Translations under genes and position numbers: made by a program
Notes under the pieces: model-generated
The model's database searches: none
What the model was told of the DNA's origin: nothing
What the model saw: only the letters and a program-made list of their open reading frames with translations
Part shown: positions 12,977 to 56,775 of the stretch, in pieces
Layout of the letters: each line of letters starts with the position of its first letter
How positions within the stretch are numbered: position 1 is the first letter of the stretch
Assembly (NCBI GenBank): GCA_947492825.1
Contig: CANLNT010000001.1
Span: 1,612,001 to 1,676,000, forward strand
Source: an uncultured Paracoccaceae bacterium
Lineage (GTDB): Bacteria > Pseudomonadota > Alphaproteobacteria > Rhodobacterales > Rhodobacteraceae
Direction of reading: 5' to 3'
DNA length: 64,000 nt

Positions 12977-12982
12977 GTGCGG

Positions 12983-14921: not shown

Positions 14922-14932
14922 TTTTGTCCCCT

Positions 14933-15785: not shown

Positions 15786-15788
15786 CCG

Positions 15789-16519: not shown

Positions 16520-16549
16520 AATGTCACTCCTTGACTGTAAGAATTGGCG

Positions 16550-17891: not shown

Positions 17892-18052
17892 CGAAACGTC
17901 TCCGCAGGGTGCTATTTCATCGGACGGTGGTCCCGAAGGCGCGGCGACTCCCGACGTTGCTCGGACGGATCAGAGCAGTGGGACAACGCCAGGTGAAACA
18001 ACGCCTTCGGGATAAGCCGCGAACATCTCTGCCCGCGCCTTACGCTTGCGGT

Positions 18053-19234: not shown

Positions 19235-19263
19235 CTTGGTCCTCTTGTCGTGGGTGGCGCTAA

Positions 19264-19812: not shown

Positions 19813-19830
19813 GTCGTCTCCTTTTTCGCG

Positions 19831-20040
19831 TTAGCTCTGCGGTGAAAATGTTTGAATGATTTCAAAAAGAAGCAGCGCAGCGGTGCCGCAAACCAGCATC
19901 AAGATCTGCCATTCCAGCTTCTGAATGATGCTCTCGATCCGCGTCAGACGTGCATCAACCTGAGCGAACCAGAAGTCTGTAACAGGCAGCGGTGTAGACC
20001 TGCGGCCTTTGGCTGAAATCTCGACAATATTATCCTTCAT
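19831..20040 (-). CDS. orfg3.5: GTA g3.5: head formation protein
   Basis: A 69-residue bitopic protein. It starts at the ATG at 20040 (MKDNIVEISAKGRRSTPLPV), has a charged helical middle and ends in one membrane helix (LEWQILMLVCGTAALLLFEII). It overlaps the portal stop by 11 nt. It matches the small gene between portal and protease in RcGTA, known from genetics as a head-formation factor. A longer frame to 20067 exists but its first codons lie inside the portal gene and lack a ribosome site. Confidence 0.88.
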   Translation of the reverse strand: MKDNIVEISAKGRRSTPLPVTDFWFAQVDARLTRIESIIQKLEWQILMLVCGTAALLLFEIIQTFSPQS

Positions 20041-21214: not shown

Positions 21215-21335
21215 CCACTTCTCCTTGCTGGCACCACATCCTGGCGCGCCGTCTTGTTCGTTCGAGCAATCTGCCCGTAAAGTATTGAAAGTTTCGATGA
21301 GCACCGCACGGTGCCCGGCACTCCAGAGAATCCAG

Positions 21336-22736
21336 CTACAATCCACGCACTTGCGGTGCCGCCCATGACTTGGCGGGGATCAGCATCAGCTCTGTCAACG
21401 CCCAGACAAGCGCGTCAACACGGTCGGGCGATCCTTTTCCCTCAAATCCCAGCAGCGTCATCTGGCCCATCTCAGCCTCAAGGTCTTGCAGCCCTCTGAC
21501 ATGGGCTACCCTGCCCTGCGCGTACAGCGCCGCCACAGGTTCTGCGCGTGCGGCTTTCCCGCGCGAGGCGTGCAAGCCTTTCACAGGTACCAATGGATCA
21601 ACGCTGCGGATGACTGTCTCAACCAAATCACCGCCTTGGTTCACCTCCGCGACCAAGCGGTCTGCCTGGTGCCGGTGCAAGGCGGCTACGGCCGCTTTGG
21701 CCCAAGTCAGCGGCGCTGCCGCCGCAACACTTGCGTCCTCCAGCACATAAGCTCGCCATTCATATGGCGGCCCTTTCATCACGACACCCGCCACAATGAT
21801 TCCGCAGGCATCCGACCGGGCATGTCCGCTGACCGGCGGATCGACTGCCACGACAATGCGATCCATTTCAGGTGCTGTGCTGACAACCTGCCGCGCGACA
21901 TCATCCATGTCCCACAGGCCCCCTTGCACATCCGTCAACAAAGCACCGTCCAGTTCTTGCCGACCCAGCCGTGTCCCAGCATAGCGGCCCTGCACTTCCT
22001 TTAGAAAACTGGGCGCAAGGTTCGCGGCATTGTCGAATGTCGTCGCACGTGTCATCCGCGTGCTGTCAGTTTCCAACAACCTCCGCAACAACGGAACGTT
22101 GCGCGGCGTCGTCGTGACCGTCGCGCGCGGCGCCTCACCCAACCGCAACCCAAATTGCAACATATCCCAGGCTTCGTCGGGATGCGGCCATTTTGCCAAT
22201 TCATCCACCCATGCCCCATCAAACTGCGGTCCGCGCAGGCTTTCTGGATCAAAAGCAGAGAATAACTGCGCTGTTGCCCCGTTTTCCCATTGCAGCATTT
22301 TGCGGCCGGCGACCCAATTAGGACGAAATGCAGGTGGCGACATCGCAAGGATCCCGCTTTCACCAAAGATCATGACCTCGCGGGCCTGCTCAATCGTCTC
22401 GCCCACCAGTGCGATGCGCTGTGCCTGTCCTTGCAAGGTCTGCGTTGGCCCTTCGACCATCGTGCGCACCCATTCGGCCCCGGCGCGGGTCTTACCCGCG
22501 CCGCGCCCACCCAAGATGACCCAGGTCCGCCAATCCCCCTCCGGTGCCAGTTGATGCGGCATCGCCCAAAAGGCAAAGAGGTAGGGCAGCATTTCCAGTT
22601 CAGCTGGCGTCAGGGTCTTCAGAAACCGCCTTTGCACCGAGCGTGGCGCGGAGGCGATCAAGCCTGCGCCCAATTTGATCCCGGATTGTTTCAAGATCGA
22701 TGGGCTCATCAGTTTCTGCGTTTTTGATTTGGTCAT
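21336..22736 (-). CDS. orfg2: GTA g2: large terminase subunit
   Basis: A 466-residue packaging ATPase/nuclease. Walker A is GGRGAGKTRAGAEWVRTM, and the probable Walker B/acidic site is GAWVDELAKW. The C-terminal RNase H-like nuclease includes RIVVAVDPPVSGHARSDACG and the Asp in DRVDALVWALTE. The preferred start at 22736 has GAGG 6 nt upstream, and it gives a 137-nt overlap with g1. An ATG at 22709 is an alternative. GTA terminases package host DNA by headful cutting and not from a pac site. Confidence 0.94.
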   Translation of the reverse strand: MTKSKTQKLMSPSILKQSGIKLGAGLIASAPRSVQRRFLKTLTPAELEMLPYLFAFWAMPHQLAPEGDWRTWVILGGRGAGKTRAGAEWVRTMVEGPTQTLQGQAQRIALVGETIEQAREVMIFGESGILAMSPPAFRPNWVAGRKMLQWENGATAQLFSAFDPESLRGPQFDGAWVDELAKWPHPDEAWDMLQFGLRLGEAPRATVTTTPRNVPLLRRLLETDSTRMTRATTFDNAANLAPSFLKEVQGRYAGTRLGRQELDGALLTDVQGGLWDMDDVARQVVSTAPEMDRIVVAVDPPVSGHARSDACGIIVAGVVMKGPPYEWRAYVLEDASVAAAAPLTWAKAAVAALHRHQADRLVAEVNQGGDLVETVIRSVDPLVPVKGLHASRGKAARAEPVAALYAQGRVAHVRGLQDLEAEMGQMTLLGFEGKGSPDRVDALVWALTELMLIPAKSWAAPQVRGL

Positions 22737-22953
22737 ATAGGGCCTCTTCGGCTTTGAGCAGAAGAGCCTGCAACCTTTGCAGCTCATTCAACTTGCGTTT
22801 GACAACCTGCCCGGTCAGCACTTCTTTGCGACTCGTATGGCTGCCGTAGAAGGCCATCATCCGCCTGATTTCGCGGAACATCTCGCGATATTCCGCAAAG
22901 CGTCTGTGCACCTGCGCGTGCTTAACGCGCGGTGGATCTGTCGTTGATGTCAT
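22600..22953 (-). CDS. orfg1: GTA g1: small terminase subunit
   Basis: A 117-residue helical protein in the position of RcGTA g1, the small terminase that recruits DNA to the large subunit. It is rich in basic residues (RRFAEYREMFREIRRMMAFY) and heptad-like helices (RKLNELQRLQALLLKAEEAL), compatible with an oligomeric TerS. The start at 22953 is chosen by homology-like length; 23013 is also in frame. The 3' half overlaps g2 in another frame. It is the first gene of the GTA unit, so its promoter should lie within 22954-23055. Confidence 0.85.
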   Translation of the reverse strand: MTSTTDPPRVKHAQVHRRFAEYREMFREIRRMMAFYGSHTSRKEVLTGQVVKRKLNELQRLQALLLKAEEALYDQIKNAETDEPIDLETIRDQIGRRLDRLRATLGAKAVSEDPDAS

Positions 22954-40955: not shown

Positions 40956-42500
40956 TCAGAGCCCCAGCGCGCGAAAGACCTTTGGGAGCGCCTCGGGCAG
41001 GTCTTCGGCAATCAGGCCGGGGCCAAAGCTGCGCGCGGCTTCAGTATGCAGCCAAGCGCCAGTTTTTGCCGCCTGCTGCGGGGCAAAGCCACGCGCAAGC
41101 AGCCCGGTGATGAAGCCTGCCAGCACATCGCCCGACCCGGCCGTGGCCAGCCACGGGGCCGCGCGGTCATAGGCTGAGGCGTTGATGGCGCAACGGCCAT
41201 CGGGATGCGCGATCACCGTGTCGGCCCCTTTGAACAGCACCACGCAGCCTGCACGTTTGGCGGCGTCGCGTGTGGCATCGACCTTGGAATAGGCGGGTCC
41301 TGTGGTGGCAGGTTCCGCCAGTTCGGCGGCGATATCGGGGAAGAGCCGCGCAAATTCGCCGCCGTGCGGGGTCAGAACGCAGCGGTCGTGCAGCAGGCCG
41401 AAGAGGTCTGAATTCTGGCTGAGCAGGGTTAAGGCGTCAGCGTCCAAGACGGTGGCCCGATCACTGGCAAGCGCGGATTTGATGAGATCGCGTTTCTGGT
41501 CACTCAGGCCCAGACCAGGCCCGAGGCAAAGCGCGGTGATACGCAGGTCGGCCAGAATGGCATCGAGTGCTGCGGCGTCCGGCACCTTGCGGGTCATCAC
41601 CGCATCCAGCGCCATGGCGTTTTCCAAGATTGCCGCAGGCGGGCAGCCAAGTGTCACGACCCCTGCCCCGATCCGCAAAGCGCCCCGCGCCGCAAGCCGC
41701 GCCGCACCGCCCTGTCCGACACCGCCCGACAGAACCAGCGCGTGGCCGTGGCTGAATTTGTGTTGCCCGTCTTTTCCAATCCGGTGAGCAACCCACGTGC
41801 CGGTGAGCGCAACGCCCGGCAGACCCAAGTTTGAGTGCTTGTTCGGCAAACCGATTTCGACCACCCGAAGCGCATGGGCCGACGTGATCCTCCCACCCTC
41901 AGACAGAATGTGACCGGGTTTTTTTGCGTGAAATGTCACTGTCAGCGCGGGTTCCCAAACAGGTCCTAACCAACGTCCACTTTCCGCACACAGTCCACTA
42001 GCGATATCGATGGCCACGCTCCTGTTTGCGAATTGGGCCAGGTCTTCCTCAATGTAGTCGAACATTTCTGCAATCTGACCGCTCATCGGGCGGGTCAAAC
42101 CGATCCCAAAGACAGCGTCAATCAACAGGCCGAACGGCCTTGCTGCCATGACGTTGCTTAGGGAGAGCGGCTCTACCGCGCCCATCTCATACCACCGCTC
42201 ATAATTCACCCGCGCATCGGGTGGCAGTTTGTTGGGGTCGCCATAGAGGAACACTGCGACCGTCCAGCCCTTTTCGGCCAAGAGCCGTGCGACGACGAAG
42301 CCGTCGCCGCCGTTGTTGCCCGGACCGCAGAGCACGACGGCCCGCCCACCGGCGCGATCAAGCTCAGGCCATTCCGCGAAAATGGCCTGCACCACGCCCT
42401 GGCCTGCACGTTCCATCAGGTCCAGGCCAGTCACCTCGCCACTGGCAATGGCGGCCTTTTCAACAGCGCGCATTTGGGCAGAGGTCAGCAGTTTGGTCAT
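40956..42500 (-). CDS. nnr: Bifunctional NAD(P)HX epimerase / dehydratase
   Basis: A 514-residue repair enzyme for hydrated NAD(P)H. The N-terminal epimerase half has VLCGPGNNGGDGFVVARLLA. The C-terminal ADP-dependent dehydratase half has LCLGPGLGLSDQKR, VLDADALTLL, VLTPHGGEFARLFPD and the conserved WLATAGSGDVLAGFITGLLA. Fusion of the two activities is the rule in bacteria. Start 42500 (MTKLLTSAQMRAVEKAA) has AAGGA upstream; a longer frame reaches 42533. It is divergent from glnB. Confidence 0.95.
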   Translation of the reverse strand: MTKLLTSAQMRAVEKAAIASGEVTGLDLMERAGQGVVQAIFAEWPELDRAGGRAVVLCGPGNNGGDGFVVARLLAEKGWTVAVFLYGDPNKLPPDARVNYERWYEMGAVEPLSLSNVMAARPFGLLIDAVFGIGLTRPMSGQIAEMFDYIEEDLAQFANRSVAIDIASGLCAESGRWLGPVWEPALTVTFHAKKPGHILSEGGRITSAHALRVVEIGLPNKHSNLGLPGVALTGTWVAHRIGKDGQHKFSHGHALVLSGGVGQGGAARLAARGALRIGAGVVTLGCPPAAILENAMALDAVMTRKVPDAAALDAILADLRITALCLGPGLGLSDQKRDLIKSALASDRATVLDADALTLLSQNSDLFGLLHDRCVLTPHGGEFARLFPDIAAELAEPATTGPAYSKVDATRDAAKRAGCVVLFKGADTVIAHPDGRCAINASAYDRAAPWLATAGSGDVLAGFITGLLARGFAPQQAAKTGAWLHTEAARSFGPGLIAEDLPEALPKVFRALGL

Positions 42501-42651
42501 TGGGTCTTGTCCTTGCGATTCAATTCTGCGCAATTTGCATGCGCACCGCCTAATTTTTAAGCAAACATATTCAATTCGCCGAAGCGGGCCACCGGCAATG
42601 GCGCGCGCGAATTGTCCCTGTGCAACGAAGATGGTCTGACCCCCCTAGTAA

Positions 42652-43011
<360 letters not shown>

Positions 43012-43060
43012 CCGCATAGACACCACACATCCAAATACCTGCTAAAAAAGGACCATCCTG

Positions 43061-44467
43061 ATGAGCAACAAAGACGTTCTGAAACTGATGAAGGACGAGG
43101 AAGTCGAATATGTCGACATCCGTTTCACCGACCCGCGCGGCAAGCTGCAGCACGTGACAGTCGTGGCCGATCTGGTCGACGAGGACTTTCTGGAAGAAGG
43201 TTTCATGTTCGACGGCTCATCCATTGCTGGCTGGAAGTCCATCGACCAGTCCGACATGAAGCTGATGCCACAGGCCGACAGCGCCTATGTTGACCCTTTC
43301 TATGCCGAAAAGACAATTTGCCTGCACTGTAACGTGGTCGAGCCCGACACCGGGGAAGCCTATGACCGTGACCCGCGCGGCACGGCAGTGAAAGCAGAGG
43401 CTTATCTGAAGTCTTCTGGCATTGGTGATGCGGCCTATTTCGGCCCTGAGGCTGAATTCTTCATCTTTGACGATGTGCGGTTCGCCGTGTCGATGAACAA
43501 AGTGTCCTACGAAGTCGACGCAATTGACGGCGCGTGGAACTCTGACACCGAATACGAGATGGGCAACACTGGCCATCGTCCGGGCATCAAGGGCGGCTAT
43601 TTCCCTGTCAACCCGATTGACGACGCACAGGACATGCGCGGCGAGATGCTGAGCACCATGAAGCGCATGGGCATGAAAGTGGACAAGCACCACCACGAGG
43701 TTGCGTCTTGCCAGCACGAATTGGGCCTGATCTTTGGTTCGCTGACGCATCAGGCGGACGAGATCCAGAAGTATAAGTATGTGATCCACAACGTCGCCCA
43801 ATCCTATGGCAAGTCGGCGACCTTCATGCCCAAGCCGATCGCAGGCGATAACGGCACAGGCATGCACGTGAACATGTCAGTCTGGAAAGACGGCAAGCCG
43901 CTGTTTGCGGGCGACAAATACGCCGATCTGAGCCAGGAAGCGCTGTATTTCATCGGTGGTATCCTGAAGCACGCCAAGGCGCTGAACGCGATCACCAACC
44001 CGTCGACCAACAGCTACAAGCGTCTGATCCCGGGCTTTGAAGCGCCTGTACTGCGCGCCTATTCCGCCCGCAACCGGTCGGGATGCGTGCGTATTCCATG
44101 GGCCGAAAGCCCCAAGGCCAAGCGCGTCGAGGCCCGTTTCCCCGATCCAAGCGCCAACCCTTATCTGTGCTTTGCAGCACTGCTGATGGCTGGCCTTGAC
44201 GGGATCAAGAACAAGATTGATCCGGGCCCCTCGTCCGACAAAGACCTGTATGATCTGCCGCCGGAAGAGCTGGCTGCGATCCCAACGGTCTGCGGGTCCT
44301 TGCGTGAAGCGCTGGAAGCACTGGAAGCCGATCACGACTTCCTGCTGGCCGGTGACGTGTTCACCAAAGATCAGCTGGAAGGCTACATGGAGCTGAAGTG
44401 GGAAGAGGTTTACGCCTACGAGCACACGCCGCACCCGATGGAATACAAGCTGTACTACAGCTGCTAA
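43061..44467 (+). CDS. glnA: Glutamine synthetase type I
   Basis: A 468-residue enzyme that forms glutamine from glutamate, ammonia and ATP. Visible motifs are [39 protein letters not shown]-like '[19 protein letters not shown]', [18 protein letters not shown] (ATP and glutamate site) and the adenylylation site Tyr in [14 protein letters not shown]. The adenylylation site implies control by GlnE, in keeping with the adjacent glnB. It ends at a hairpin terminator. Confidence 0.98.
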
Positions 44468-44499
44468 ATCTGGCGGGCAAATTGCCCACCTACAAGATC

Positions 44500-44527
44500 A
44501 GGGCGTCCCGCATCGGGGCGCCCTTTT
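44500..44527 (+). terminator. Terminator of glnBA
   Basis: A 10-bp stem (AGGGCGTCCC / GGGGCGCCCT, one G-U) with a 5-nt loop is followed by TTTTC, 33 nt after the glnA stop. Confidence 0.8.
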
Positions 44528-44591
44528 CGCTGTCAGGGCCTTGCCCCAGCCTTGCCTTGACCCTGCCAGATTGACCTGATCAATCTGGGAC

Positions 44592-44990
44592 ATGGCGAAG
44601 AAACTTCATCCCCTCGACGTGCGCTACAAGGGCCCGTCAACCGCGTTTACCGGGAAATCCCGTGCCACCCGAACTGGCCCGGCTGATCCTGTTGCGCGAT
44701 CCGATGAGCGGCTCGTCCCAGCGACACCACCGCCACCGCCGTTGCCGAACACCAGCCCGACGGCACCTGTCGCCAGCCCATGGGGGACGTTGGACCCGCC
44801 ACCGCCACATCCCGCTTTGCCGCCCTTGCCGGTGCCAAAGCGCAAGCCAAAGTCCCGGCGCAGCGTGATCCGCGTGCTGATCGGGTTGGCCATCATGGGA
44901 CTGATCGTGGGCGGCAACATCATCGCCACACGCGGCTACAACGGTGCCTTGTTTGACTTGCAAACCGAGATCAACGCCGTCGACCTTTAG
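44592..44990 (+). CDS. Proline-rich single-helix membrane protein, hypothetical
   Basis: A 132-residue protein. The N-terminal 90 residues are hydrophilic with Pro-rich stretches (ATPPPPPLPNTSPTAP, DPPPPHPALPPLPVPKRKPK). One membrane helix follows (VIRVLIGLAIMGLIVGGNII), then a short acidic tail. The Lys/Arg cluster before the helix puts the long proline-rich part in the cytoplasm. No family is recognised. The start (MAKKLHPLDVRYKG) is convincing, but no domain supports a function. Its stop overlaps that of the convergent demethylase gene by 3 nt. Confidence 0.6.
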   Translation: MAKKLHPLDVRYKGPSTAFTGKSRATRTGPADPVARSDERLVPATPPPPPLPNTSPTAPVASPWGTLDPPPPHPALPPLPVPKRKPKSRRSVIRVLIGLAIMGLIVGGNIIATRGYNGALFDLQTEINAVDL

Positions 44991-45739
44991 CGCCGCGTCA
45001 CCGTGGTGTGGATCGTAAAGGCCACAGCATCCGAATCCGGCAGGCGCAGAAGCGTTTGGCGCTCACTGCGCAGATAACGGCTTTGGCCGTCGCCTACGGG
45101 ACGCGGGTCCGCTTCGGTGCGGGGTTGGAACAGGGTTGGGTCTTCATAGGCCAGCAGATTAGCGCGCCAAAGCGGCTGGTCTGTGCGCAGATTGTCAAAC
45201 AACCGGGTCACACGCGCTGTCATCTCTGCCCCGAATCCGGGCACGGGGGCATGGATCGGGCCAAGCGGTTTGCCGATTTTCTCGGCCAGCATCCAACTTG
45301 CCGGAAAGCACAAAAGGGCGGCTGTCAGCACATATGAACCGCCGTGTTTCTGCAGAATGCAAATGTCTTCCTGCAGCAGTTGCGCAAGGGTCAGGAGAGG
45401 ATCCGTGCTGTCGCGCGTCACACTGCGGCCATCGGGACAGGTCACGGCGTCATCATTGACCGTAAAGCCCGGCAACTGGCTGAGGTCTTTGGCGGTCACC
45501 TCTAACATTTCTGCGCAGGCATCCTGTGCCCGGGGCAGCACGGCGAGAACCGCTGCCCGCCGGGTCTGCAAGAGATCTCGTTTGGTTGCGATCTGGGCGG
45601 CATAGGCATCATCCACCGTGATCCAGCCGCCCTGCACCGGTTGCATCCCCGGCAAGCGCCGCGCCGCAAGCGCCTGCTGCGCGGGGTCAAGGGCAGATTG
45701 CAAAACTGGCCCGGATCCTCGTATTTTGCCTGTTTGCAC
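44987..45739 (-). CDS. Haem-dependent oxidative N-demethylase-like protein (DUF3445)
   Basis: A protein of about 250 residues of the DUF3445/HODM alpha-like family, related to the dimethylamine monooxygenase subunit. It contains LPGMQPVQGGWITVDDAYAA, LLQEDICILQKHGGSYVLTA, CFPASWMLAEKIGKPLGPIH, PVPGFGAEMTARVTRLFDNL and the C-terminal 'RLPDSDAVAFTIHTTV'. In this family the protein binds haem and oxidises N-methyl groups. The reductase partners seen in the dmm operon are absent. The start is probably a non-ATG codon: GTG at 45739, or TTG at 45703 which would begin at LQSALDP. It is divergent from dddP, with an 87-bp shared promoter region. Confidence 0.8.
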   Translation of the reverse strand: MQTGKIRGSGPVLQSALDPAQQALAARRLPGMQPVQGGWITVDDAYAAQIATKRDLLQTRRAAVLAVLPRAQDACAEMLEVTAKDLSQLPGFTVNDDAVTCPDGRSVTRDSTDPLLTLAQLLQEDICILQKHGGSYVLTAALLCFPASWMLAEKIGKPLGPIHAPVPGFGAEMTARVTRLFDNLRTDQPLWRANLLAYEDPTLFQPRTEADPRPVGDGQSRYLRSERQTLLRLPDSDAVAFTIHTTVTRR

Positions 45740-45826
45740 CGATTTGCCCCATGCGCGATGTCGGAAATGGGCGATCTTTGCCCCCTTCCCCGCGCCATGC
45801 TGCGCTTTATGGCGGCGGAGGACAAG

Positions 45827-47170
45827 ATGAACACCCACTATCGCGACACCCGCAAGATTGACCCCACGCGCGGGGCAACGCTGGGCGACGGCACCCCAAA
45901 TGATCAGGACCGGGTCGAGATCGGGCCAACGCAATTGGCCTTTGCCGAATGGGCCGCCGCTGGCCTGCAATTGCCCGATCTTCCGGCAATGCGGGCCTAT
46001 CGCCATCAGCGGCTGGTGGATGCCGTCAATCAGCGCGAATGGGGTGGTATTTTGATGACCGACCCGCTGAACATTCGCTACGCGACCGACAGCACCAACA
46101 TGCAGCTGTGGAATACCCACAACCCGTTCCGGGCGCTTTTGGTGTGTGCGGACGGCTATATGGTGATGTGGGACTACAAAAACGGCATGTTCCTGTCCAA
46201 GTTCAACCCCTTGGTGCGCGAACAGCGCACCGGTGCGGACCTGTTCTATTTTGATCGCGGGGATCAGATCAAACCCGCAGCCGACGATCTGACTGCGCAA
46301 ATCCGGGATCTGTTGGTGGAACATGCGGGCGGTAATCTGACACTGGGTGTCGACAAGATCATGATCCACGGGTTGCGCAGTCTGGAAGACCGCGGAATGA
46401 CCGTGATGCCGGGCGAAGAGCTGACGGAACATGCCCGGTCGATCAAGGGGCCGGACGAGATTTTGGCGATGCGCTGTGCGTCACATGCCTGCGAGACCGC
46501 GTGTTACGCGATGGAGGACGCCGCCCGTGCCGGTGTACCGGGCGGCACGATGTCTGAGGATGACATTTGGGCGGTGCTGCACGCGGAAAACATCCGGCGC
46601 GGCGGTGAATGGATCGAAACCCGGCTGTTGTCGTCAGGGCCTCGCACGAACCCGTGGTTTCAGGAATGCGGGGGCCGGATTGTGCAGAACAATGAGATCG
46701 TGGCCTTTGATACCGATCTGGTGGGCGCTTATGGGATCTGCGTCGATATCAGTCGCACCTGGTGGATCGGTGATCAAAAGCCCCGCCCTGACATGATTGA
46801 AGCGATGAAATGGGGTGTCGCGCATATCCAGACCAATATGGAGATGCTGCGCCCCGGCGTGACCATCCCGGAACTGACCGCGAATTGCCATCAACTGCCA
46901 GACAAATACTGGAAGCAGAAATACGGCTGCCTGATGCATGGCGTGGGCCTTTGCGATGAATGGCCGCTGGTGGCCTATTCCGACAAGGCCGTCGAGGGCG
47001 CATTTGACTATGCGCTGCAACCGGGCATGACGTTGTGTGTTGAGGCGCTGATCTCACCCGAGGGGGGAGATTTCTCAATCAAGCTGGAAGATCAGGTGCT
47101 GATCACTGAGGACGGGTATGAGAACCTGACGCAATACCCCTTTGACCCACGCCTTACCGGCGAGGCTTAA
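45827..47170 (+). CDS. dddP: DMSP lyase DddP (M24 peptidase family)
   Basis: A 447-residue enzyme that cleaves dimethylsulfoniopropionate to dimethyl sulfide and acrylate. It has the creatinase/M24 fold and the length of DddP (about 446 residues). The published metal-ligand positions of Ruegeria DddP are all present at identical numbering: D295 and D297 (FDTD), D307 (CVDIS), H371 (LMHGVGLCDEWP), E406 (CVEA) and E421 (KLEDQ). The catalytic D377 and Y366 are also conserved. The family hallmarks STNMQLWNTHNPFRA and WIETRLLSSGPRTNPWFQEC are intact. GGAGG lies 5 nt before the ATG. It is not in a larger ddd operon; the divergent neighbour is a demethylase-like gene. Confidence 0.95.
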   Translation: MNTHYRDTRKIDPTRGATLGDGTPNDQDRVEIGPTQLAFAEWAAAGLQLPDLPAMRAYRHQRLVDAVNQREWGGILMTDPLNIRYATDSTNMQLWNTHNPFRALLVCADGYMVMWDYKNGMFLSKFNPLVREQRTGADLFYFDRGDQIKPAADDLTAQIRDLLVEHAGGNLTLGVDKIMIHGLRSLEDRGMTVMPGEELTEHARSIKGPDEILAMRCASHACETACYAMEDAARAGVPGGTMSEDDIWAVLHAENIRRGGEWIETRLLSSGPRTNPWFQECGGRIVQNNEIVAFDTDLVGAYGICVDISRTWWIGDQKPRPDMIEAMKWGVAHIQTNMEMLRPGVTIPELTANCHQLPDKYWKQKYGCLMHGVGLCDEWPLVAYSDKAVEGAFDYALQPGMTLCVEALISPEGGDFSIKLEDQVLITEDGYENLTQYPFDPRLTGEA

Positions 47171-47628
47171 GGAGTAGGTGCGCGCGCCTCTGCCGCCGAA
47201 TAGATCAGCAGGTCCCGCTTGAGCTGCGTGCGGAAGGCTGAAAAGGCGTCGCGCAGTGTGGCTTCGGTGACAGGTTTGCCTGCGTTTCTGCGGCGAAGCA
47301 GATCCTTGGCCTTCGACAGTTTCTTCATCGCGTCAAAGCTAAGATACATCGCACCACCTTGGGCGAAATAGACCGTGTTCAGCTTTGCAAGTGCCGCTGA
47401 TGCGGCATCTGGCGTCAACTCTGGCGGCTCTGTCTTGCGGAAGGGCTCGCTCGCCGCCCAAAAGCAGGCGTAAGCCTCTGCGCGTTTGGTCGCGATTTCC
47501 TGCACCAGATCGGCGCGCGCCTTGCTGCGTTGTAGCAAGTAATTCAGGCCCGCCACCGCAATGACAATCAGAAGGGCCAGCGCGCCCTTGTCCAACAGGA
47601 TGAGTTTGATTTCGTCCGAAAAATGCAT
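47167..47628 (-). CDS. Single-helix membrane protein of unknown function
   Basis: A 153-residue protein. It has an N-terminal membrane helix (GALALLIVIAVAGLNYLL) and then a charged helical cytoplasmic domain (EIATKRAEAYACFWAASEPF, FDAMKKLSKAKDLLRRRNAG). The start 47628 (MHFSDEIKLI) has AGGGG 6 nt upstream; 47658 is also in frame. The stop overlaps the dddP stop, so the genes are convergent. The architecture resembles that of the protein at 37425-37967, but without clear sequence identity. No function is assigned. Confidence 0.7.
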   Translation of the reverse strand: MHFSDEIKLILLDKGALALLIVIAVAGLNYLLQRSKARADLVQEIATKRAEAYACFWAASEPFRKTEPPELTPDAASAALAKLNTVYFAQGGAMYLSFDAMKKLSKAKDLLRRRNAGKPVTEATLRDAFSAFRTQLKRDLLIYSAAEARAPTP

Positions 47629-47783
47629 CTTTGGCCCCTCTCCGAAAACCTCTAACATAGCGGCAACCCACCGGATCAGGCAAACCCGCGCCAGACTTCA
47701 ATCTGTCACCACCCCGTGAACCCCCTTTCAGGACGCGCGCCCAATGCCTACCCTTGGGCAACCCAATTCAAAGGACGCGCCCT

Positions 47784-48992
47784 ATGCCAACCGAACGCTT
47801 CACTTTTCCCGGTCATGCCGGTCACCAATTGGCCGCACGGCTGGATCTGCCCGACGGGCCGCATCTGGCGACAGCCCTTTTTGCCCATTGCTTTACCTGT
47901 TCCAAGGATATCACTGCCGCACGACGTATTGCCGCGCGCCTTTCAGCGATGGGCATTGCTGTGCTGCGGTTTGACTTCACCGGTCTGGGCCACTCCGAGG
48001 GTGAATTTGCAAATACCTCGTTCACTTCAAACGTGGATGACCTGCACGCCGCCTGTCGGGCGCTGGATGCCCGCGGGATGCCACCTGCACTGCTGGTGGG
48101 GCATTCGCTGGGCGGGGCCGCGGTGCTGCGCGCGGCTTCTGAAATGGACCAGATCAAGGCGGTCGTGACCATCGGCGCGCCCGCTGACCCCGGCCATGTG
48201 ACCCACAACTTTGCCGAGGCCTTGCCCACCATTCTGGCCAATGGTCAGGCAGAGGTCACGCTGGGCGGACGGCCATTTACCATCGGCAAGGACTTTGTCG
48301 AGGACGTCGAGATGGCCAATCTGACCAAATCACTTGGCAAGCTGAACGCGGCGCTGCTGGTCATGCATGCCCCGCGTGACACGACAGTGGGCATTGAAAA
48401 CGCCGCAGAGATTTTCACCGCAGCGCGCCACCCCAAAAGCTTTGTCACCCTTGATAACGCAGACCATCTGATGACCGACGCCGCTGACGCGGAATACGCC
48501 GCTGACACCATCGCCACATGGGCGGGGCGCTACATTGACCTGACCGCGCCTGCAACGCCGTCCGATCTGCCCGAAGGCGTGCTGCGCGTGACAGAGGCAG
48601 ATGCCGCAGGGTTTCTGCAAGACATCCAGTCAGGCCCGCATCACATTGCCGCCGATGAACCCGCCAGCTATGGCGGCACCAACAAAGGTCTGACACCCTA
48701 CGGGCTGGTCTCCGCAGGTCTGGGCGCCTGCACAAGCATGACGATCCGCATGTATGCCCGGCGAAAGAAATGGCCCCTAACGGGCGTGCATGTGGACATC
48801 AGCCACAACAAATCGCATGCCACCGATGCCGGCAGCGACACGCCCACGAAAATCGACACCTTCACTCGCACCATCACATTGCAGGGCGATCTGGATGCCG
48901 ACCAACGCCAGCGCTTGTTGGAAATTGCGGACAAATGCCCGGTGCACCGCACACTGGAACAAAGCAGCCACATCACCACCGCGCTGGCCTGA
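47784..48992 (+). CDS. Alpha/beta hydrolase fused to OsmC peroxiredoxin-like domain
   Basis: A 402-residue bifunctional protein. The N-terminal 260 residues form an alpha/beta hydrolase with a nucleophile elbow LLVGHSLGGAAVLRAAS and a likely catalytic His in LDNADHLMTDAA. The last 140 residues are an OsmC/Ohr domain with the paired cysteines in AGLGACTSMTIRMYARRKKW and ADKCPVHRTLEQ. OsmC domains reduce organic hydroperoxides. The fusion is known in many proteobacteria, and its physiological substrate is unsettled. AAAGGA precedes the ATG. It is convergent with bioY. Confidence 0.93.
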   Translation: MPTERFTFPGHAGHQLAARLDLPDGPHLATALFAHCFTCSKDITAARRIAARLSAMGIAVLRFDFTGLGHSEGEFANTSFTSNVDDLHAACRALDARGMPPALLVGHSLGGAAVLRAASEMDQIKAVVTIGAPADPGHVTHNFAEALPTILANGQAEVTLGGRPFTIGKDFVEDVEMANLTKSLGKLNAALLVMHAPRDTTVGIENAAEIFTAARHPKSFVTLDNADHLMTDAADAEYAADTIATWAGRYIDLTAPATPSDLPEGVLRVTEADAAGFLQDIQSGPHHIAADEPASYGGTNKGLTPYGLVSAGLGACTSMTIRMYARRKKWPLTGVHVDISHNKSHATDAGSDTPTKIDTFTRTITLQGDLDADQRQRLLEIADKCPVHRTLEQSSHITTALA

Positions 48993-49054
48993 TCTTTCTT
49001 TTGAAAGAAAATATGCCCGCCGGAGGCTCCCGCCCCGCGCACCCCGGCGGACCA
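48993..49054. repeat. Palindrome-rich tail after hydrolase-OsmC gene
   Basis: A short AT-rich palindrome (TTTCTTTTGAAAGAAA) is followed by CCGCCGG ... CCGGCGG arms about 20 nt apart. Similar 3'-end sequences recur in roseobacter genomes as far as I recall. It could act as a terminator for the plus-strand gene. Confidence 0.45.
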
Positions 49055-49099
49055 TCTGTCAAAAAGGCGGGCCCGCATAACCAGGCGCCAGAATGAAGA

Positions 49100-49124
49100 A
49101 AGGCGCAGCCAACGGCTGCGCCTT
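49100..49124 (-). terminator. Terminator of bioY
   Basis: An 11-bp stem (AAGGCGCAGCC / GGCTGCGCCTT) with a 3-nt loop, followed on the minus strand by TCTTC. It lies 24 nt after the bioY stop. Confidence 0.8.
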
Positions 49125-49148
49125 GCAATTTAACAGGTGGCGGTTGGG

Positions 49149-49748
49149 TCAGGCGCGAGCGTTGCCCAAAAGCTTCCACAGGCCCGGCACCAGAAGTGCG
49201 GCCAGCACCAGCTTTATGCCATCACCGATCAGGAACGGCCACAGGCCCCAAGCCAGGATCGGCTGGTCCCAGCCATAAAGCACACCCAGCCAGGCCACAC
49301 CCGGCAGGTAGATCAGCGCGTTGCCGATCAGCATCGCAGCCCCCATCAACAGGATCGAGCGGTCCCAGCCCGCGCGCGCAGCAAATCCCAGCGCCAGCGT
49401 GGCAATCACATACCCTACCAGATAGCCGCCGGTGCCGCCCATCATGTACTCAAGGCCAAACTTTTCCGCCGAAGACCCGGCAAAGACGTCAAAACCCAGC
49501 GCGCCGACGATCATGTAGCCCAGGATCGTCGCCAGACCCAGACGCGGGCCATAGGCCGCACCGATGGTCAGGACCGCAAAGGTGCCCATGGTCACCGGAA
49601 CGGGCCACATTGGCACCTTGATCTTGGCAAAAATCGCCAGTGCCACGATCCCCAGAACCACCATCGCCGCTTGCTTGACCCGGAGTGCTGTGCCTTCAGT
49701 TGGTCCAAAGGCTTCGGTCAGAACTTTATCGTTGAGTGCGAGTGCCAT
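49149..49748 (-). CDS. bioY: Biotin transporter BioY (S component)
   Basis: A 199-residue membrane protein with about six helices, the biotin-binding S component of an ECF transporter. Typical motifs are KVPMWPVPVTMGTFAVLTIG, YGPRLGLATILGYMIVGALG, GGTGGYLVGYVIATLALGF and WPFLIGDGIKLVLAALLVPG. The ATPase and T components (BioM, BioN) are not adjacent; BioY alone can work in some bacteria. It carries a non-hydrophobic N-terminal extension of about 20 residues. No BioR box was recognised upstream. Confidence 0.95.
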   Translation of the reverse strand: MALALNDKVLTEAFGPTEGTALRVKQAAMVVLGIVALAIFAKIKVPMWPVPVTMGTFAVLTIGAAYGPRLGLATILGYMIVGALGFDVFAGSSAEKFGLEYMMGGTGGYLVGYVIATLALGFAARAGWDRSILLMGAAMLIGNALIYLPGVAWLGVLYGWDQPILAWGLWPFLIGDGIKLVLAALLVPGLWKLLGNARA

Positions 49749-49823
49749 CGGCGCTCCCCCTTTATTTCGTTGCTTTCCCCTTCTTTACGTACCTGCGGCG
49801 TAACCGCAAGACTGCTTGCGCAA

Positions 49824-50243
49824 TCAGTCGCGGTTGTAGCGGGCAAAAGACACATAGTCCTTGCGCGGGCCAGTGACGGTCCAGCGGGCCGTCCAGACCG
49901 GCCACCCGCCAAAGTCATAGCGCACGTCATAGGTGTCAGCGCCGCAAAGATGGCGGATATCATCGCTTTGGCCCGTGGGCACAAAGTCATGAAAGGCACG
50001 ACCATCATCAAACAGCATCTGCACGCCGTCCTCATCAAAGACCCAAAGATACCGACGCTCAGCCTGAAGCCGGGCGCCGCTGTGTAATTGAAACGTACCG
50101 GTTTCATGATAGTCGAGCCGCCCTGCCCCGGCATCCGTCAGGGTGGCCCTGCCCTCAAACTGGCCGCTTTGCTGGCCCAGATGATCGGTGATCTGCCGCT
50201 GCAATTGCCAGACACCGGCAAACGCCGCAGGCCCAAGCGTCAT
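49824..50243 (-). CDS. DUF6314 family protein
   Basis: A 139-residue soluble protein, probably a small lipocalin-like beta barrel. Segments such as GVWQLQRQITDHLGQQSGQF, GRLDYHETGTFQ, RYLWVFDEDGVQMLFDDGRA, FHDF and the closing WTVTGPRKDYVSFARY match DUF6314 proteins. The biochemical function is unknown. The start overlaps the stop of the gene at 50240 by 4 nt (ATGA), so the two are a unit. Confidence 0.8.
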   Translation of the reverse strand: MTLGPAAFAGVWQLQRQITDHLGQQSGQFEGRATLTDAGAGRLDYHETGTFQLHSGARLQAERRYLWVFDEDGVQMLFDDGRAFHDFVPTGQSDDIRHLCGADTYDVRYDFGGWPVWTARWTVTGPRKDYVSFARYNRD

Positions 50244-50572
50244 TTCAGGATGGTTCCCTGACTGACGCTGCGGTCGGAGCCGATGAACTGCACCAGATCG
50301 CCAGCGAGATAAAAGTCATAGCAGGTCCAGGTGTCAGAAGGCGGCCAGACAGAGCAATACTGCCCAGCCCGCGTGGCCCAGCGACCGTCCGCGGCGCGTT
50401 CGGTGATATATTGGGTGTCGCCTGCCTTGCTGAAGTGCTGGATCGTATAGGCGTCATACCGCACGGTTTTGCCGCCAAGGGCCGCCATAATGCCCGCGTC
50501 ATCCTGCCGGACCCAGTCTTGTGCCGCGGCCATGCCCGGCAAACACATCAAAACAACTGCCAATGCGCGCAT
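50240..50572 (-). CDS. Small exported protein, unknown function
   Basis: A 110-residue protein with a signal peptide (MRALAVVLMCLPGMAAAQ). The mature part of about 90 residues contains LGGKTVRYDAYTIQHFSKAG and YCSVWPPSDTWTCYDFYLAG, with two Cys that may pair. It lies upstream of, and coupled to, the DUF6314 gene. I do not recognise the family. Divergent from purB, with about 85 bp between starts. Confidence 0.75.
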   Translation of the reverse strand: MRALAVVLMCLPGMAAAQDWVRQDDAGIMAALGGKTVRYDAYTIQHFSKAGDTQYITERAADGRWATRAGQYCSVWPPSDTWTCYDFYLAGDLVQFIGSDRSVSQGTILK

Positions 50573-50656
50573 CTGGCCGCCTCCTGTCTTGTGACCCTAC
50601 GCCGCACACCTTATGACGCCCGCGACGGCTCTGCCATTCACAAAAAGGCCAAATCC

Positions 50657-51964
50657 ATGATCCCACGCTATGCCCGCCCCGAGATGACTGCCATTTGGGA
50701 CCCTGCCACCAAATTCCGCATTTGGTACGAAATCGAGGCGCACGCCTGTGACGCCATGGCCGATCTGGGCGTGATCCCGCGCGAAAACGCGGACGCGGTG
50801 TGGAAGGCCAAGGACGTGGAGTTCGACGTGGCCCGCATTGACGAGATCGAGGCGGTCACCAAGCACGATGTCATCGCCTTTCTGACCCATCTGGCGGAAC
50901 ATGTGGGCAGTGACGAGGCACGGTTTGTGCATCAGGGCATGACCAGCTCTGACGTGCTGGACACCTGTTTGAACGTGCAGCTGGTCCGGGCGGCCGACAT
51001 TCTGATTGCCGATCTTGATGCGTTGCTGGCCGCGCTGAAAAAGCGGGCGATGGAACACAAGATGGATGTGCGCGTCGGCCGCAGCCACGGCATCCACGCA
51101 GAGCCCACCACGATGGGCCTGACCTTTGCCCGCTTCTATGCCGAGATGGACCGCAACCGCGCCCGCATGGTCGCCGCGCGCGACGAGATCGCAACCGGGG
51201 CCATTTCGGGCGCTGTGGGCACATTTGCCAACATCGACCCTGCGGTCGAAGAACATGTCTGCGCCAAGCTGGGTCTCGCGCCAGAGCCGATCAGCACGCA
51301 GGTGATCCCGCGCGACCGCCACGCGATGTTTTTCGCAGTGCTTGGGGTGATCGCCTCTTCCATTGAAAATGTCGCCATTGAAATCCGCCACATGCAGCGC
51401 ACTGAGGTGCTGGAGGGGGCCGAATTTTTCTCGATGGGTCAAAAGGGATCTTCGGCGATGCCGCACAAGAAGAACCCTGTGCTGACCGAAAACCTGACCG
51501 GTCTGGCGCGTCTTGTGCGCATGACCGTGATCCCGGCGATGGAAAACGTGGCCCTGTGGCACGAGCGCGATATTTCGCATTCCTCTGTCGAGCGTGGCAT
51601 CGGGCCGGACGCGACGATCACGCTTGATTTTGCGCTGAACCGGCTGACCGGTGTGATCGACAAGATGCTGATCTTCCCCGATAACATGCTGGACAACATG
51701 AATAAATTCCCCGGGCTGGTGATGTCGCAACGGGTGTTGCTGGCGCTGACGCAAGCCGGTGTCAGCCGCGAAGATGCCTATGCGATGGTGCAGCGCAACG
51801 CGCTGAAGGTCTGGGAAGAGCGGACAGATTTCCGCGAAGAACTGCTGGCCGACAACGATGTGGTCGCGGCATTGGGCGAAGAGGCGATTAACGCAAACTT
51901 CAACCTCGACTATCACACCAAGCACGTCGAGACGATCTTTGCGCGGGTGTTTGGCGACAGCTAA
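50657..51964 (+). CDS. purB: Adenylosuccinate lyase
   Basis: A 435-residue enzyme that releases fumarate from SAICAR and adenylosuccinate in purine synthesis. The fumarase/aspartase-superfamily signature is GSSAMPHKKNPVLTENL. The substrate motifs MTSSDVLDTCLNVQL and GRSHGIHAEPTTMGL are also clear. The start is the ATG at 50657 (MIPRYARPEMTAIW); the open frame extends to 50411 without support. AAGG precedes the ATG. Confidence 0.97.
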   Translation: MIPRYARPEMTAIWDPATKFRIWYEIEAHACDAMADLGVIPRENADAVWKAKDVEFDVARIDEIEAVTKHDVIAFLTHLAEHVGSDEARFVHQGMTSSDVLDTCLNVQLVRAADILIADLDALLAALKKRAMEHKMDVRVGRSHGIHAEPTTMGLTFARFYAEMDRNRARMVAARDEIATGAISGAVGTFANIDPAVEEHVCAKLGLAPEPISTQVIPRDRHAMFFAVLGVIASSIENVAIEIRHMQRTEVLEGAEFFSMGQKGSSAMPHKKNPVLTENLTGLARLVRMTVIPAMENVALWHERDISHSSVERGIGPDATITLDFALNRLTGVIDKMLIFPDNMLDNMNKFPGLVMSQRVLLALTQAGVSREDAYAMVQRNALKVWEERTDFREELLADNDVVAALGEEAINANFNLDYHTKHVETIFARVFGDS

Positions 51965-52044
51965 GAGGTGCTGACAGAAACGTGAGGCATGACTTTTGCC
52001 GCGTCTGTGCTAGCTTTTGGTCACGAAACCAAACGGAGGCCAAG

Positions 52045-52218
52045 ATGAAGATCAAGACCACGTTTGCTGCATTGATCCTGACTGTAATGCCCGGGCTTGC
52101 ATTTGCCCAAGGGTGCCACGGCGGGGCCATGCACGAAAACACAACGGCCATGTCCTGCGCAGAAGGGTCGATGATCGACCCTGAAACCGGGACTTGCGTG
52201 CCGCTTGTAACCGGCTAA
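52045..52218 (+). CDS. Small secreted Cys-containing protein
   Basis: A 57-residue protein with a signal peptide (MKIKTTFAALILTVMPGLAFA). The short mature part of about 36 residues contains QGCHGGAMHENTTAMSCAEG and TGTCVPLVTG, with three Cys. GGAGG precedes the ATG. Similar very small secreted proteins follow purB in other roseobacters, as far as I recall. No function is known. It ends at a strong hairpin. Confidence 0.75.
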   Translation: MKIKTTFAALILTVMPGLAFAQGCHGGAMHENTTAMSCAEGSMIDPETGTCVPLVTG

Positions 52219-52226
52219 GGCCGCGT

Positions 52227-52249
52227 AGGGTGGGCAGTTTGCCCACCCT
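52227..52249. terminator. GC-rich hairpin between small gene and luxI
   Basis: A perfect 10-bp stem (AGGGTGGGCA / TGCCCACCCT) with loop GTT. There is no T-tract, but it lies between two convergent genes. A related GGCGGGCAAATTGCCCACC palindrome lies after glnA at 44472-44490. Confidence 0.6.
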
Positions 52250-52258
52250 CACCCGACA

Positions 52259-52909
52259 TCAGACCGACGGCGCGTGAACGACCGCAGGCTGTGGACGGTG
52301 CGTAGCTGCAGGCGGGATCGGTGTGCTGCGTTCCACCGGCATCGCCAGCACGGCATAGCGCCGCCCGTCACCTTCGTTCAGGTATGGGTCGCCAATGCGC
52401 TCTGCCCCGAACCCAAGTTGACGCAGCGCGCGCATCAGCGCCAGTGGCGAAAGTGACATCAACCTGTTGGCCCCTTCGTCGGCGGCAACGTCGATCAGCC
52501 CCTGCACAATCAACGAAAGGCAGGTGCTGCGCGCGGCGTGGGTGTTGACATCATCCGACATGACAAGGCGTGTGCATTCCCAGACATCCGGGGTGCAGAC
52601 ATCGGCCTGCATCACGCTGGGTGGGATGTCGATCAGCTTCCCCCTGAGTGCATCCCGCAGCATATAGCTGTGGCTGCCCCATTTGGTTGTGGTGGCCATG
52701 GCGCGCGCGCCACCCACAACTTCACCGTCCTTCAGGACCAACGAATACCACGCCCTAGGGTTGTCATACTGGTCCATTTCGACGTCGTCATCATGCGGGA
52801 TGTCCCACCCCAGCGTGTCGACAAAGAATCGTTTCCGCAGTGCGAGGAAATCGAAGAAGGCAGACCCGTGAATGTGCATTTGTGCCAGATTGAATGTGAT
52901 GTTTTCCAT
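52259..52909 (-). CDS. luxI: LuxI-type acyl-homoserine lactone synthase
   Basis: A 216-residue acyltransferase-fold enzyme predicted to make AHL signals from S-adenosylmethionine and acyl-ACP. The invariant LuxI residues are visible: R25 (LRKRFF), F28-29, W35 (LGWDIP), D46 and D49 (EMDQYDNP), R69 (GGARAM), and E111 with R114 (WECTRLVMSDD). The C-terminal 25 residues are Pro-rich and unlike the core. The acyl chain made cannot be read from sequence. It lies 120 bp downstream of luxR on the same strand. AGGAG precedes the ATG. Confidence 0.93.
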   Translation of the reverse strand: MENITFNLAQMHIHGSAFFDFLALRKRFFVDTLGWDIPHDDDVEMDQYDNPRAWYSLVLKDGEVVGGARAMATTTKWGSHSYMLRDALRGKLIDIPPSVMQADVCTPDVWECTRLVMSDDVNTHAARSTCLSLIVQGLIDVAADEGANRLMSLSPLALMRALRQLGFGAERIGDPYLNEGDGRRYAVLAMPVERSTPIPPAATHRPQPAVVHAPSV

Positions 52910-53031
52910 GTACCCTACTCCTTTTAAGTGCTTTTGAGGGTATCATCACAACGTCTGGTTGCGCCATAGAGTCAGCAACAAACCCACCAAAAAAGGGGAA
53001 TTGACCAAAGATCGGAAACAGTGGAACGGCG

Positions 53032-53640
53032 TCAGATGATGCCGTATTGCGCGGCCATTGTCGCGGCCTGCGTACTGGTCTTGGCGCCCAGCTTGCCCTT
53101 GGCATTTTTCAGCCGTTGTTTGACCGCACCTTCGGTCACGTCGAGTTCGAATGCGATCTGTTTCAGGCGCATCCCTTCCTTGACCATCCGCAGGGCCGAA
53201 AGCTCTGCCTCGGTCAGGTTAGTGGGCGGGGCCATTTCGCGGTGACGTCGATGAACAAAGGCCTCTAACAATTTGATTTCCATATCAATAAATGGCCTGT
53301 CACTACGGGAAAACGACCCAAAGGATCGCTGGCCTTCGGCATTGCCATCAAAGACGGAGATCGTAATTCCGTGGTGCAGCCCGTGTTCACGGGCACGGTC
53401 CAAAATACCCTTGGGGTCATCCCCGGACAGGTCATTCCAATGCACGACACCGGTATGGGCGTAGGCCCAGCGCACGACCGGATCAAACAGCATGTAACGC
53501 TGGCGGGTGTAGTGTTCGACCCAAGCCGGAGGGAGCGCGTTCACCTCTTCCATGGGGAAGGCGAATCCAATGCGCAATGCAATGAAGTAACCCGCCGGAG
53601 CCAACTGTCCGACATCTTCAAGGCTAAGCACTGTCGACAT
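53032..53640 (-). CDS. luxR: LuxR-type quorum-sensing regulator
   Basis: A 202-residue regulator with an autoinducer-binding domain and a C-terminal helix-turn-helix. The ligand-pocket residues known from TraR are conserved: W40 and Y44 (PAWVEHYTRQRY), D53 and P54 (FDPVVRWAY), W68 and G91 (HGITISVF). The HTH is at residues 140-200 (LTEAELSALRMVKEGMRLKQ, then EGAVKQRLKNAKGKLGAKT). At 202 residues it is slightly shorter than typical LuxR proteins (about 235-250). It is upstream of luxI on the minus strand and divergent from the HTH-less homologue at 53774. Confidence 0.93.
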   Translation of the reverse strand: MSTVLSLEDVGQLAPAGYFIALRIGFAFPMEEVNALPPAWVEHYTRQRYMLFDPVVRWAYAHTGVVHWNDLSGDDPKGILDRAREHGLHHGITISVFDGNAEGQRSFGSFSRSDRPFIDMEIKLLEAFVHRRHREMAPPTNLTEAELSALRMVKEGMRLKQIAFELDVTEGAVKQRLKNAKGKLGAKTSTQAATMAAQYGII

Positions 53641-55543: not shown

Positions 55544-55894
55544 ATGGCAGAGACATCTTTCACAGGCCGCCGCTGGCACGACATGGGCGGCGATGCGGCG
55601 GGTCCGGTACCTTCGGATCAACATGACTTTTCCCTGTGGGAAAAACGCGTGGATGCGCTGATGGTGCTGTGTTCCGGCAAAGGGCTGTTCACCGTCGACG
55701 GGCTGCGCCGCGTGCTGGAAGACATGGGGCCGGACAGCTTTGAAACGATGAGCTATTATGAGCGTTGGATCGCTTCGGTGAACCAGAACCTGATCGAAGC
55801 GGGGGCCTATTCGACAGCAGAGCTGGCCGCCAAGATGGCCGAGGTGCAGGCGCGCGGCACAACCTATGGCGAGGCCGCGGATGCAACGCGTTAG
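55544..55894 (+). CDS. Nitrile hydratase beta N-terminal half / ScnB-like
   Basis: A 116-residue protein matching only the N-terminal helical half of nitrile hydratase beta. DMGGDAAGPVPSDQHDFSLW corresponds to the family's DxGG...GPV start. MSYYERWIASVNQNLIEAG corresponds to the TYYEHWL...N-L-E-G segment. The SH3-like C-terminal half is in the next gene, which overlaps this one by 14 nt. This split is the hallmark of thiocyanate hydrolase (ScnB) and toyocamycin nitrile hydratase, and most NHases have one beta gene. It may also act like an NHase accessory protein, which shares this fold. Confidence 0.87.
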   Translation: MAETSFTGRRWHDMGGDAAGPVPSDQHDFSLWEKRVDALMVLCSGKGLFTVDGLRRVLEDMGPDSFETMSYYERWIASVNQNLIEAGAYSTAELAAKMAEVQARGTTYGEAADATR

Positions 55895-56150
55895 AGTCCG
55901 CGCCGATATGCCCCCCGGTCATGTCCGCACCCCCGCCTATCTGCGCGGCAAGACAGGCGTGACAGAGCGGATTCTGGGCCCCTTCCCCAACCCCGAAGAC
56001 CTGGCCTATCGCCGCGCGGGCACGCCGCTTAACCTGTACCGGGTGCGGTTTCGAATGGGTGATCTGTGGGGTGCTGGCGCAGAGCGGCCTGAAGACACGC
56101 TTGAGGCCGAAATTTATGCCCATTGGCTGGAGCCCGCAGATGCCCCATGA
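55881..56150 (+). CDS. Nitrile hydratase beta C-terminal half / ScnA-like
   Basis: An 89-residue SH3-like barrel matching the C-terminal half of nitrile hydratase beta. Conserved segments are MQRVRVRADMPPGHVRTPAY, LRGKTGVTERILGPFPNPED, LYRVRFRMGDLWG and AEIYAHWLEPA. It begins 14 nt inside the first gene and overlaps the alpha-like gene by 11 nt. GAGG lies 6 nt upstream of the ATG at 55881; an upstream ATG at 55866 is less well placed. It contacts the alpha-type subunit and shapes the active-site cover in the family. Confidence 0.9.
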   Translation: MQRVRVRADMPPGHVRTPAYLRGKTGVTERILGPFPNPEDLAYRRAGTPLNLYRVRFRMGDLWGAGAERPEDTLEAEIYAHWLEPADAP

Positions 56151-56775
56151 CCACCACGATCATTTGTCACCGTCAGGCCATCCCTATCGGCCGGATGACG
56201 ACCATCCGCTGACCTATTGGCAAACGCTGGAAATCGCTGTGCGCGAATTGCTGGTGGAAAAAGGCGTCACCACAGCGACCGAGATTGCAGGCCAAATTGA
56301 TGCGATGGATGCGCGCAACCCGGCGATGGGGGCCGCAGTTGTTGCCCGCTTCTGGACGGACCCGAATTTTGCAAAGGCGCTGCTTGCCGATGGGTCAAAG
56401 GCCACGGCAGAGATGGGTTATGACATTGGTCCGATGAAGCTGATCGCGCTGCCCAACACGCCCAAACTGCACAATGTGGTCGTGTGTACCTTGTGTTCGT
56501 GCTACCCGCGCAACCTGCTGGGGTTACCGCCTGATTGGTATAAATCGCGCGCCTACCGGTCCCGCACGGTGCGTGAACCGCGCCGGGTGCTCGCCGAATT
56601 TGGCGTCACCTTGCCCGACACGGTCGAAGTGCGGGTGCACGACAGCACCGCCGATATGCGCTATATCGTGATCCCAAACCGGCCAGCAGGCACCGAGGGT
56701 TGGGGAACAGATGATCTGGCCGCACTGGTCACGCGCGACAGCATGATCGGCACCGGGCTTGCCCGCACGCCATGA
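56140..56775 (+). CDS. Nitrile hydratase alpha / ScnC-like, cobalt-type
   Basis: A 211-residue metal-binding catalytic subunit. The metal site is VVCTLCSCYPRN, with C116, C119, S120 and C121; a Thr after the first Cys marks the cobalt type, against Ser in iron-type enzymes. Downstream motifs are LGLPPDWYKSRAYRSRTVRE and EVRVHDSTADMRYIVIPNRP. The N-terminus is unusually His/Asp-rich (MPHDHHDHLSPSGH), and thiocyanate hydrolase gamma has a similar His-rich start. The substrate may be a nitrile or thiocyanate; sequence alone does not decide. It overlaps the lipid acyltransferase gene by 4 nt. Confidence 0.93.
   Translation: MPHDHHDHLSPSGHPYRPDDDHPLTYWQTLEIAVRELLVEKGVTTATEIAGQIDAMDARNPAMGAAVVARFWTDPNFAKALLADGSKATAEMGYDIGPMKLIALPNTPKLHNVVVCTLCSCYPRNLLGLPPDWYKSRAYRSRTVREPRRVLAEFGVTLPDTVEVRVHDSTADMRYIVIPNRPAGTEGWGTDDLAALVTRDSMIGTGLARTP

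Follow-up and report, generated by a model that had tools for sequence, protein, structure and literature searches.

The analysed window, a stretch of 64,000 nucleotides from an uncultured bacterium of the Paracoccaceae, carries at 45827–47170 (+) an open frame of 447 codons followed by a stop. Its product of 447 aa has the M24 fold, and we assigned it as a predicted DMSP lyase and named the gene dddP on the basis of the NCBIfam model NF043017, a gap-free match to the solved structures 4RZY and 4B28 and a clade shared with both. The motif GGAGGA at 45817–45822 (+), seen by inspection of the sequence four bases upstream of the ATG at 45827, is the likely ribosome-binding site, and this ATG agrees with the N-termini of the solved DddPs in the phmmer match; the mechanical list of open reading frames gives an earlier start, a TTG at 45641. 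Four pairwise comparisons gave dN values of 0.05–0.20 against dS values of 1.2–2.3, the latter being near saturation, and the gene is under purifying selection. No second close dddP was found in its own genome, where the next match is an M24 protein of 24% identity.

On one side dddP is flanked by a divergent HODM_asu-like gene (PF11927; 44987–45703, −) with a TTG start at a distance of 123 bases, which on present evidence does not belong to the lyase system, and then, going outward, by a 132-codon ORF, glnA, glnB and nnr. This HODM_asu-like gene is the sole PF11927 match in its genome and seemingly has no paralogue. On the other side follow an ORF of 163 aa matching no family (47167–47658, −), which overlaps the dddP stop by four bases, an alpha/beta hydrolase-OsmC fusion (47754–48992, +), bioY, a DUF6314 gene, a short ORF and purB. 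As the sequence-only reading had stated, no ddd operon surrounds the gene: a scan of the neighbours from 40956 to 53640, which are those named above together with unnamed ORFs, recognised no gene of the ddd, dmd or acu types. The window also holds genes of other kinds. A gene-transfer-agent-like cluster at 9062–22787 (−) shows GTA TIM-barrel and tail protein, baseplate hub, DUF2460, capsid, portal and terminase families in order, and at 52259–53640 (−) a LuxI-type autoinducer synthase (49.4 bits, cut-off 24) adjoins a LuxR-type regulator. Within 55544–56775 a nitrile hydratase alpha-chain gene (56059–56775, +) is preceded by two short overlapping ORFs (55544–55894 and 55866–56150), which may represent a putative split beta chain.

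The protein had been described as a close DddP homologue, and scores, structures and phylogeny all bear this out. It reaches 881.3 bits with the NCBI DddP equivalog NF043017.1, 281 bits above the cut-off of 600, and the next family follows at 43.2 bits. The model has no sharp edge, as two relatives of the class of about 50% identity score 629.6 and 591 bits on either side of its cut-off. Against the PDB the match is far beyond chance (phmmer, E = 1e-240), with four distinct sequences (4RZY/4RZZ, 4S01, 4S00 and 4B28) aligning to residues 1–445 without gaps, and direct counting gave 337/445 identical residues for 4RZY and 331/445 for 4B28, both gap-free. The PDB search labels these entries merely as Peptidase M24 or metallopeptidase. 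We take 4RZY, 4RZZ, 4S00 and 4S01 to be the DddP of Ruegeria lacuscaerulensis, which fits passages of PMC10686828 and PMC5395565, and 4B28 to be the Roseobacter denitrificans enzyme (RdDddP), which fits passages of PMC4108388. Entry 4S01 is cited as DddP-acrylate in PMC10686828. Our tree of 65 rows places the window protein in a Rhodobacterales clade of 18 rows together with both solved DddPs (support 100/100, stem 0.69), with an uncultured Rhodobacteraceae sequence (94% identical) and Yoonia sp. F2084L as its nearest neighbours. A placement outside the DddP clade, named by the sequence-only reading as evidence against its assignment, was thus looked for in this tree and not found. Furthermore, the protein exceeds the mark of 68% identity to a ratified enzyme that a passage of PMC6309047 gives for a functional Ddd.

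All eight residues that had been listed at Ruegeria numbers (D295, D297, D307, H371, E406, E421, D377 and Y366) are found at exactly these positions, as they are in 4RZY and 4B28. The published list concerns the R. denitrificans enzyme, to which the numbering of the Ruegeria enzyme is identical in our alignment. According to PMC4108388, D295, D297, D307, H371, E406 and E421 are metal ligands while Y366 and D377 line the tunnel, D377 being favoured as the base. Numbered from the ATG at 45827, codons 295–297 with D295 and D297 lie at 46709–46717 (+), and codons 366–377 with Y366, the ligand H371 and the proposed base D377 lie at 46922–46957 (+). Positions 366 and 377 are changed in the PDB variants 4S00 and 4S01 relative to 4RZY, and alanine changes of the metal ligands of DddP are reported to abolish activity (PMC5395565). 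The eight residues are kept in 81 of 81 sequences comprising the window protein and the 80 best loci.

From the sequence, the residues, the clade and the gene complement, which were observed directly, we infer the activity, metal, substrate, uptake and flux of the window protein. It very probably is a DddP-family protein of 447 residues predicted to cleave DMSP into dimethyl sulfide (DMS) and acrylate, likely at a two-iron site. By homology, a metal of this site would hold the carboxylate of DMSP, D377 would abstract the alpha proton, and beta-elimination would cleave the C–S bond to release DMS and acrylate. A two-metal, mainly iron, site binding the DMSP carboxylate, D377 as base and beta-elimination are described in passages of PMC4108388, PMC10686828 and PMC5395565, and the two-iron centre and the homodimer have been measured for RdDddP (PMC4108388).

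Other genes for DMSP use are present elsewhere in the genome, where a dmdA-acuI-BCCT cluster lies about 750 kb from dddP on the same contig. The dmdA-acuI pair is found at C1:907098–909268, with DmdA scoring 648.6 bits (cut-off 410) and the AcuI-type reductase scoring above the cut-off of the acrylyl-CoA reductase family (440.4 against 297.25) and just under that of the AcuI equivalog (420.9 against 440). The gene for a BCCT transporter, for the substrate of which no NCBIfam model scored above cut-off, lies 421 bp downstream of acuI on the same strand. The three genes are consecutive on one strand (C1:907098–911366, L152), and a cysteine desulfurase-like gene comes after them. The best PrpE-like ligase (C1:359290–361158) stays under the PrpE cut-offs. 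The cupin DMSP-lyase family PF16867 has no match in this genome, a result without a true positive control as 14 control genomes also gave none over the cut-off. For Roseobacters, PMC3338564 reports in the passages considered that acuI is mostly 3' of dmdA, that dddP occurs in 24 of 37 genomes and that a tight acuI-dddP linkage occurs in none of them. The present genome fits this picture, so that having no ddd operon is the usual state for a Roseobacter. Acrylate would likely be activated by a PrpE-like ligase and then reduced by the AcuI-type enzyme encoded beside dmdA, while the BCCT transporter encoded downstream of acuI would be the likely route of DMSP uptake. The cell could either demethylate DMSP by DmdA or cleave it by DddP. 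Both demethylation and cleavage of DMSP are known from Ruegeria pomeroyi.

How much DMS would be released is a different matter. It is possible, if somewhat doubtful, that DMSP is mainly demethylated by DmdA in this strain and that DddP, while being a lyase, adds little DMS, a reading that limits the amount and does not conflict with the predicted activity. The gene dmdA is found in this genome and in 6 of 6 genomes of the genus (this one included), DMS production by a DmdA- mutant of R. pomeroyi was raised about 5-fold (PMC3338564), and dddP of Rhodobacterales was hardly labelled in 13C-DMSP incubations (PMC9327192). However, a dddP mutant of R. nubinhibens retained just 10% of the wild-type DMS (PMC5395565), which speaks against a minor role of the lyase. 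A large DMS output is disfavoured since an isolate with dddP as the sole listed lyase of its reference genome made little DMS (6 ± 2 compared to 648 and 558 for isolates with dddL and dddW, PMC9327192). That the protein is a working lyase whose main cellular substrate is DMSOP, giving DMSO and acrylate instead of DMS, appears improbable. DddP enzymes cleave DMSOP too, and the one from R. nubinhibens slightly favoured it in E. coli, but most DddPs favoured DMSP and DddP is among the enzymes described as 3–13.3-fold more efficient on DMSP (PMC10686828); the sequence of the window protein gives no indication of DMSOP.

A mis-annotated M24 peptidase or hydrolase without lyase activity would fit the Pfam result, which recognises just the general Peptidase_M24 domain, and the names Xaa-Pro aminopeptidase or dipeptidase given by some sources to close homologues, but it was rejected on the NF043017 score, the identity and the clade, and has hardly any probability left. 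The models for aminopeptidase P, Xaa-Pro dipeptidase and ectoine hydrolase score far too low (DoeA 43.2 against a cut-off of 575, PRK09795 37.3 against 393 and PepQ 31.8 against 630 bits). According to PMC5395565, Asp and Phe take the place of two peptidase histidines in DddP, and we took positions 278 and 377 as these two exchanged places from that description and our alignment. The M24 outgroups L146 and L147 show His-Pro at 277–278 and His at 377, whereas the window protein carries F278 and D377 and thus lacks both conserved peptidase histidines. In addition, a passage of PMC5395565 reports no Val-Pro activity for the DddP of R. lacuscaerulensis.

We also compared the position of the dddP gene among relatives. 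Of 80 close dddP loci, 51 have the HODM-like gene as their divergent neighbour. Of the 70 close loci that extend 9 kb or more upstream, 55 carry glnA (56 of 70 if a 32% glnA match in L081, left out of this count, is included), and the alpha/beta hydrolase-OsmC fusion forms a conserved flank in 61 of the 67 loci with at least 9 kb downstream. A search of 120 genomes of the family found a close dddP (E up to 1e-180) in 63, the HODM-like gene in 81 and both in 51. In 47 of these 51 genomes, and so in 47 of the 63 dddP-positive ones, the two genes lie side by side in divergent orientation, and 43 of the 47 gaps measure 115–267 bases. Their co-occurrence gave p = 0.0016 in Fisher's test on the 120 genomes, a value not corrected for kinship. 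The HODM-like gene occurs without a close dddP in 30 genomes, and in the 20 of them that were examined it lies beside glnA in 16, with glnA and at least one downstream flank gene being kept in 13; dddP was found in none of these 20 stretches. For comparison, glnA was present in 13 of 18 dddP-positive stretches. The close relative L011 carries dddP without the HODM-like gene. A functional pair of dddP and the HODM_asu-like gene was therefore rejected, as 16 of 20 dddP-less genomes keep the latter at the same glnA backbone and L011 lacks it, and the linkage is likely positional, not functional, because of this retention next to glnA.

The glnA flank is still there in 16 of the 20 dddP-less relatives sampled, which suggests an old inheritance of dddP with repeated loss; the simplest reading is an old site that has lost dddP many times. 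There is about an even chance that dddP was gained only once in the family, at a single glnA-purB site beside the HODM-like gene, so that its patchiness reflects repeated loss and not repeated transfer while the empty site persists. Against a single gain stands that the HODM adjacency is missing in 16 of the 63 dddP-positive genomes, and dddP could also arrive at this place by exchange through the conserved flanks. A recent horizontal gain is not supported, as the GC content of dddP (59.3%) is close to that of the window (59.0%), dddP is present in 6 of 6 genomes of the genus (this one included) and the site is conserved. Among the matches listed in the open PMC literature, nothing was found on this dddP site.

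DddP is a widespread source of DMS, a climate-active gas, and about 65% of the ddd genes in a Tara Oceans survey were dddP (PMC10686828). The present genome adds one more of the Roseobacter type that is likely able both to demethylate and to cleave DMSP, judged from its gene content, and the conserved site offers a simple way to score the loss of dddP in relatives.

A comparison with more distant proteins shows what the catalytic residues can and cannot distinguish. Our residue table contains the window protein and 62 relatives, namely proteins from 12 of the 80 close loci, from 49 places in genomes of the class and from L093; the 49 places comprise 29 of 30 loci (L001, the window's own gene, being excluded) and 20 further ones chosen by hand from the remaining list. 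The eight residues are complete in 16 of 16 sequences of at least 74% identity (window included), in 13 of 13 at 43–54% and in 26 of 26 at 34–42%, but in 0 of 8 below 34%, where position 377 is Gly in four, His in two and Asn and Ser in one each. The view that positional agreement supports a genuine lyase is therefore upheld in its conclusion, by score, identity and clade, but not in its argument: the DddP-like M24 proteins of other alphaproteobacteria (L102–L140) keep all eight residues in 39 of 39 sampled rows at 34–54% identity and yet, unlike the window protein, fall outside the 18-row Rhodobacterales clade. As the residues are also kept at this distance, it is identity and tree position that carry the case for DddP. 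The eight residues separate DddP-like from ordinary M24 proteins, not proven lyases from other DddP-like ones, and a check of catalytic residues alone cannot tell the latter two apart. Low identity is nevertheless compatible with activity, because fungal DddPs that are 50% and 32% identical to RdDddP produced DMS when present in E. coli (PMC4108388). Four alphaproteobacterial DddP-like proteins of 31–33% identity (L141, L142, L143 and L144) keep the six metal ligands and Y366 and have Gly at 377; they would be predicted not to be DMSP lyases since Gly replaces the proposed base. The second M24 protein of the same genome (L093:1833–3203), which is 24% identical to the window protein over residues 204–442, retains three of the eight residues (Y366, H371 and E406) and scores far under the cut-off of every family.

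In summary the dddP described here is an ordinary member of a known family, of the Roseobacter type, already named and not new in kind. RdDddP (4B28), called a putative lyase by its own paper, in which its metal content was measured (PMC4108388), has the same metal and tunnel residues as the window protein. The DddP of R. lacuscaerulensis (4RZY) carries the eight residues at identical numbers and differs only by ordinary species-level substitutions. The best public match, from Yoonia sp. R2331 (P0002), is 99% identical over the full length. This match and those in genomes of the genus make Yoonia the likely genus of the host, and the R2331 protein, already named DddP, is essentially the same protein as that of the window.
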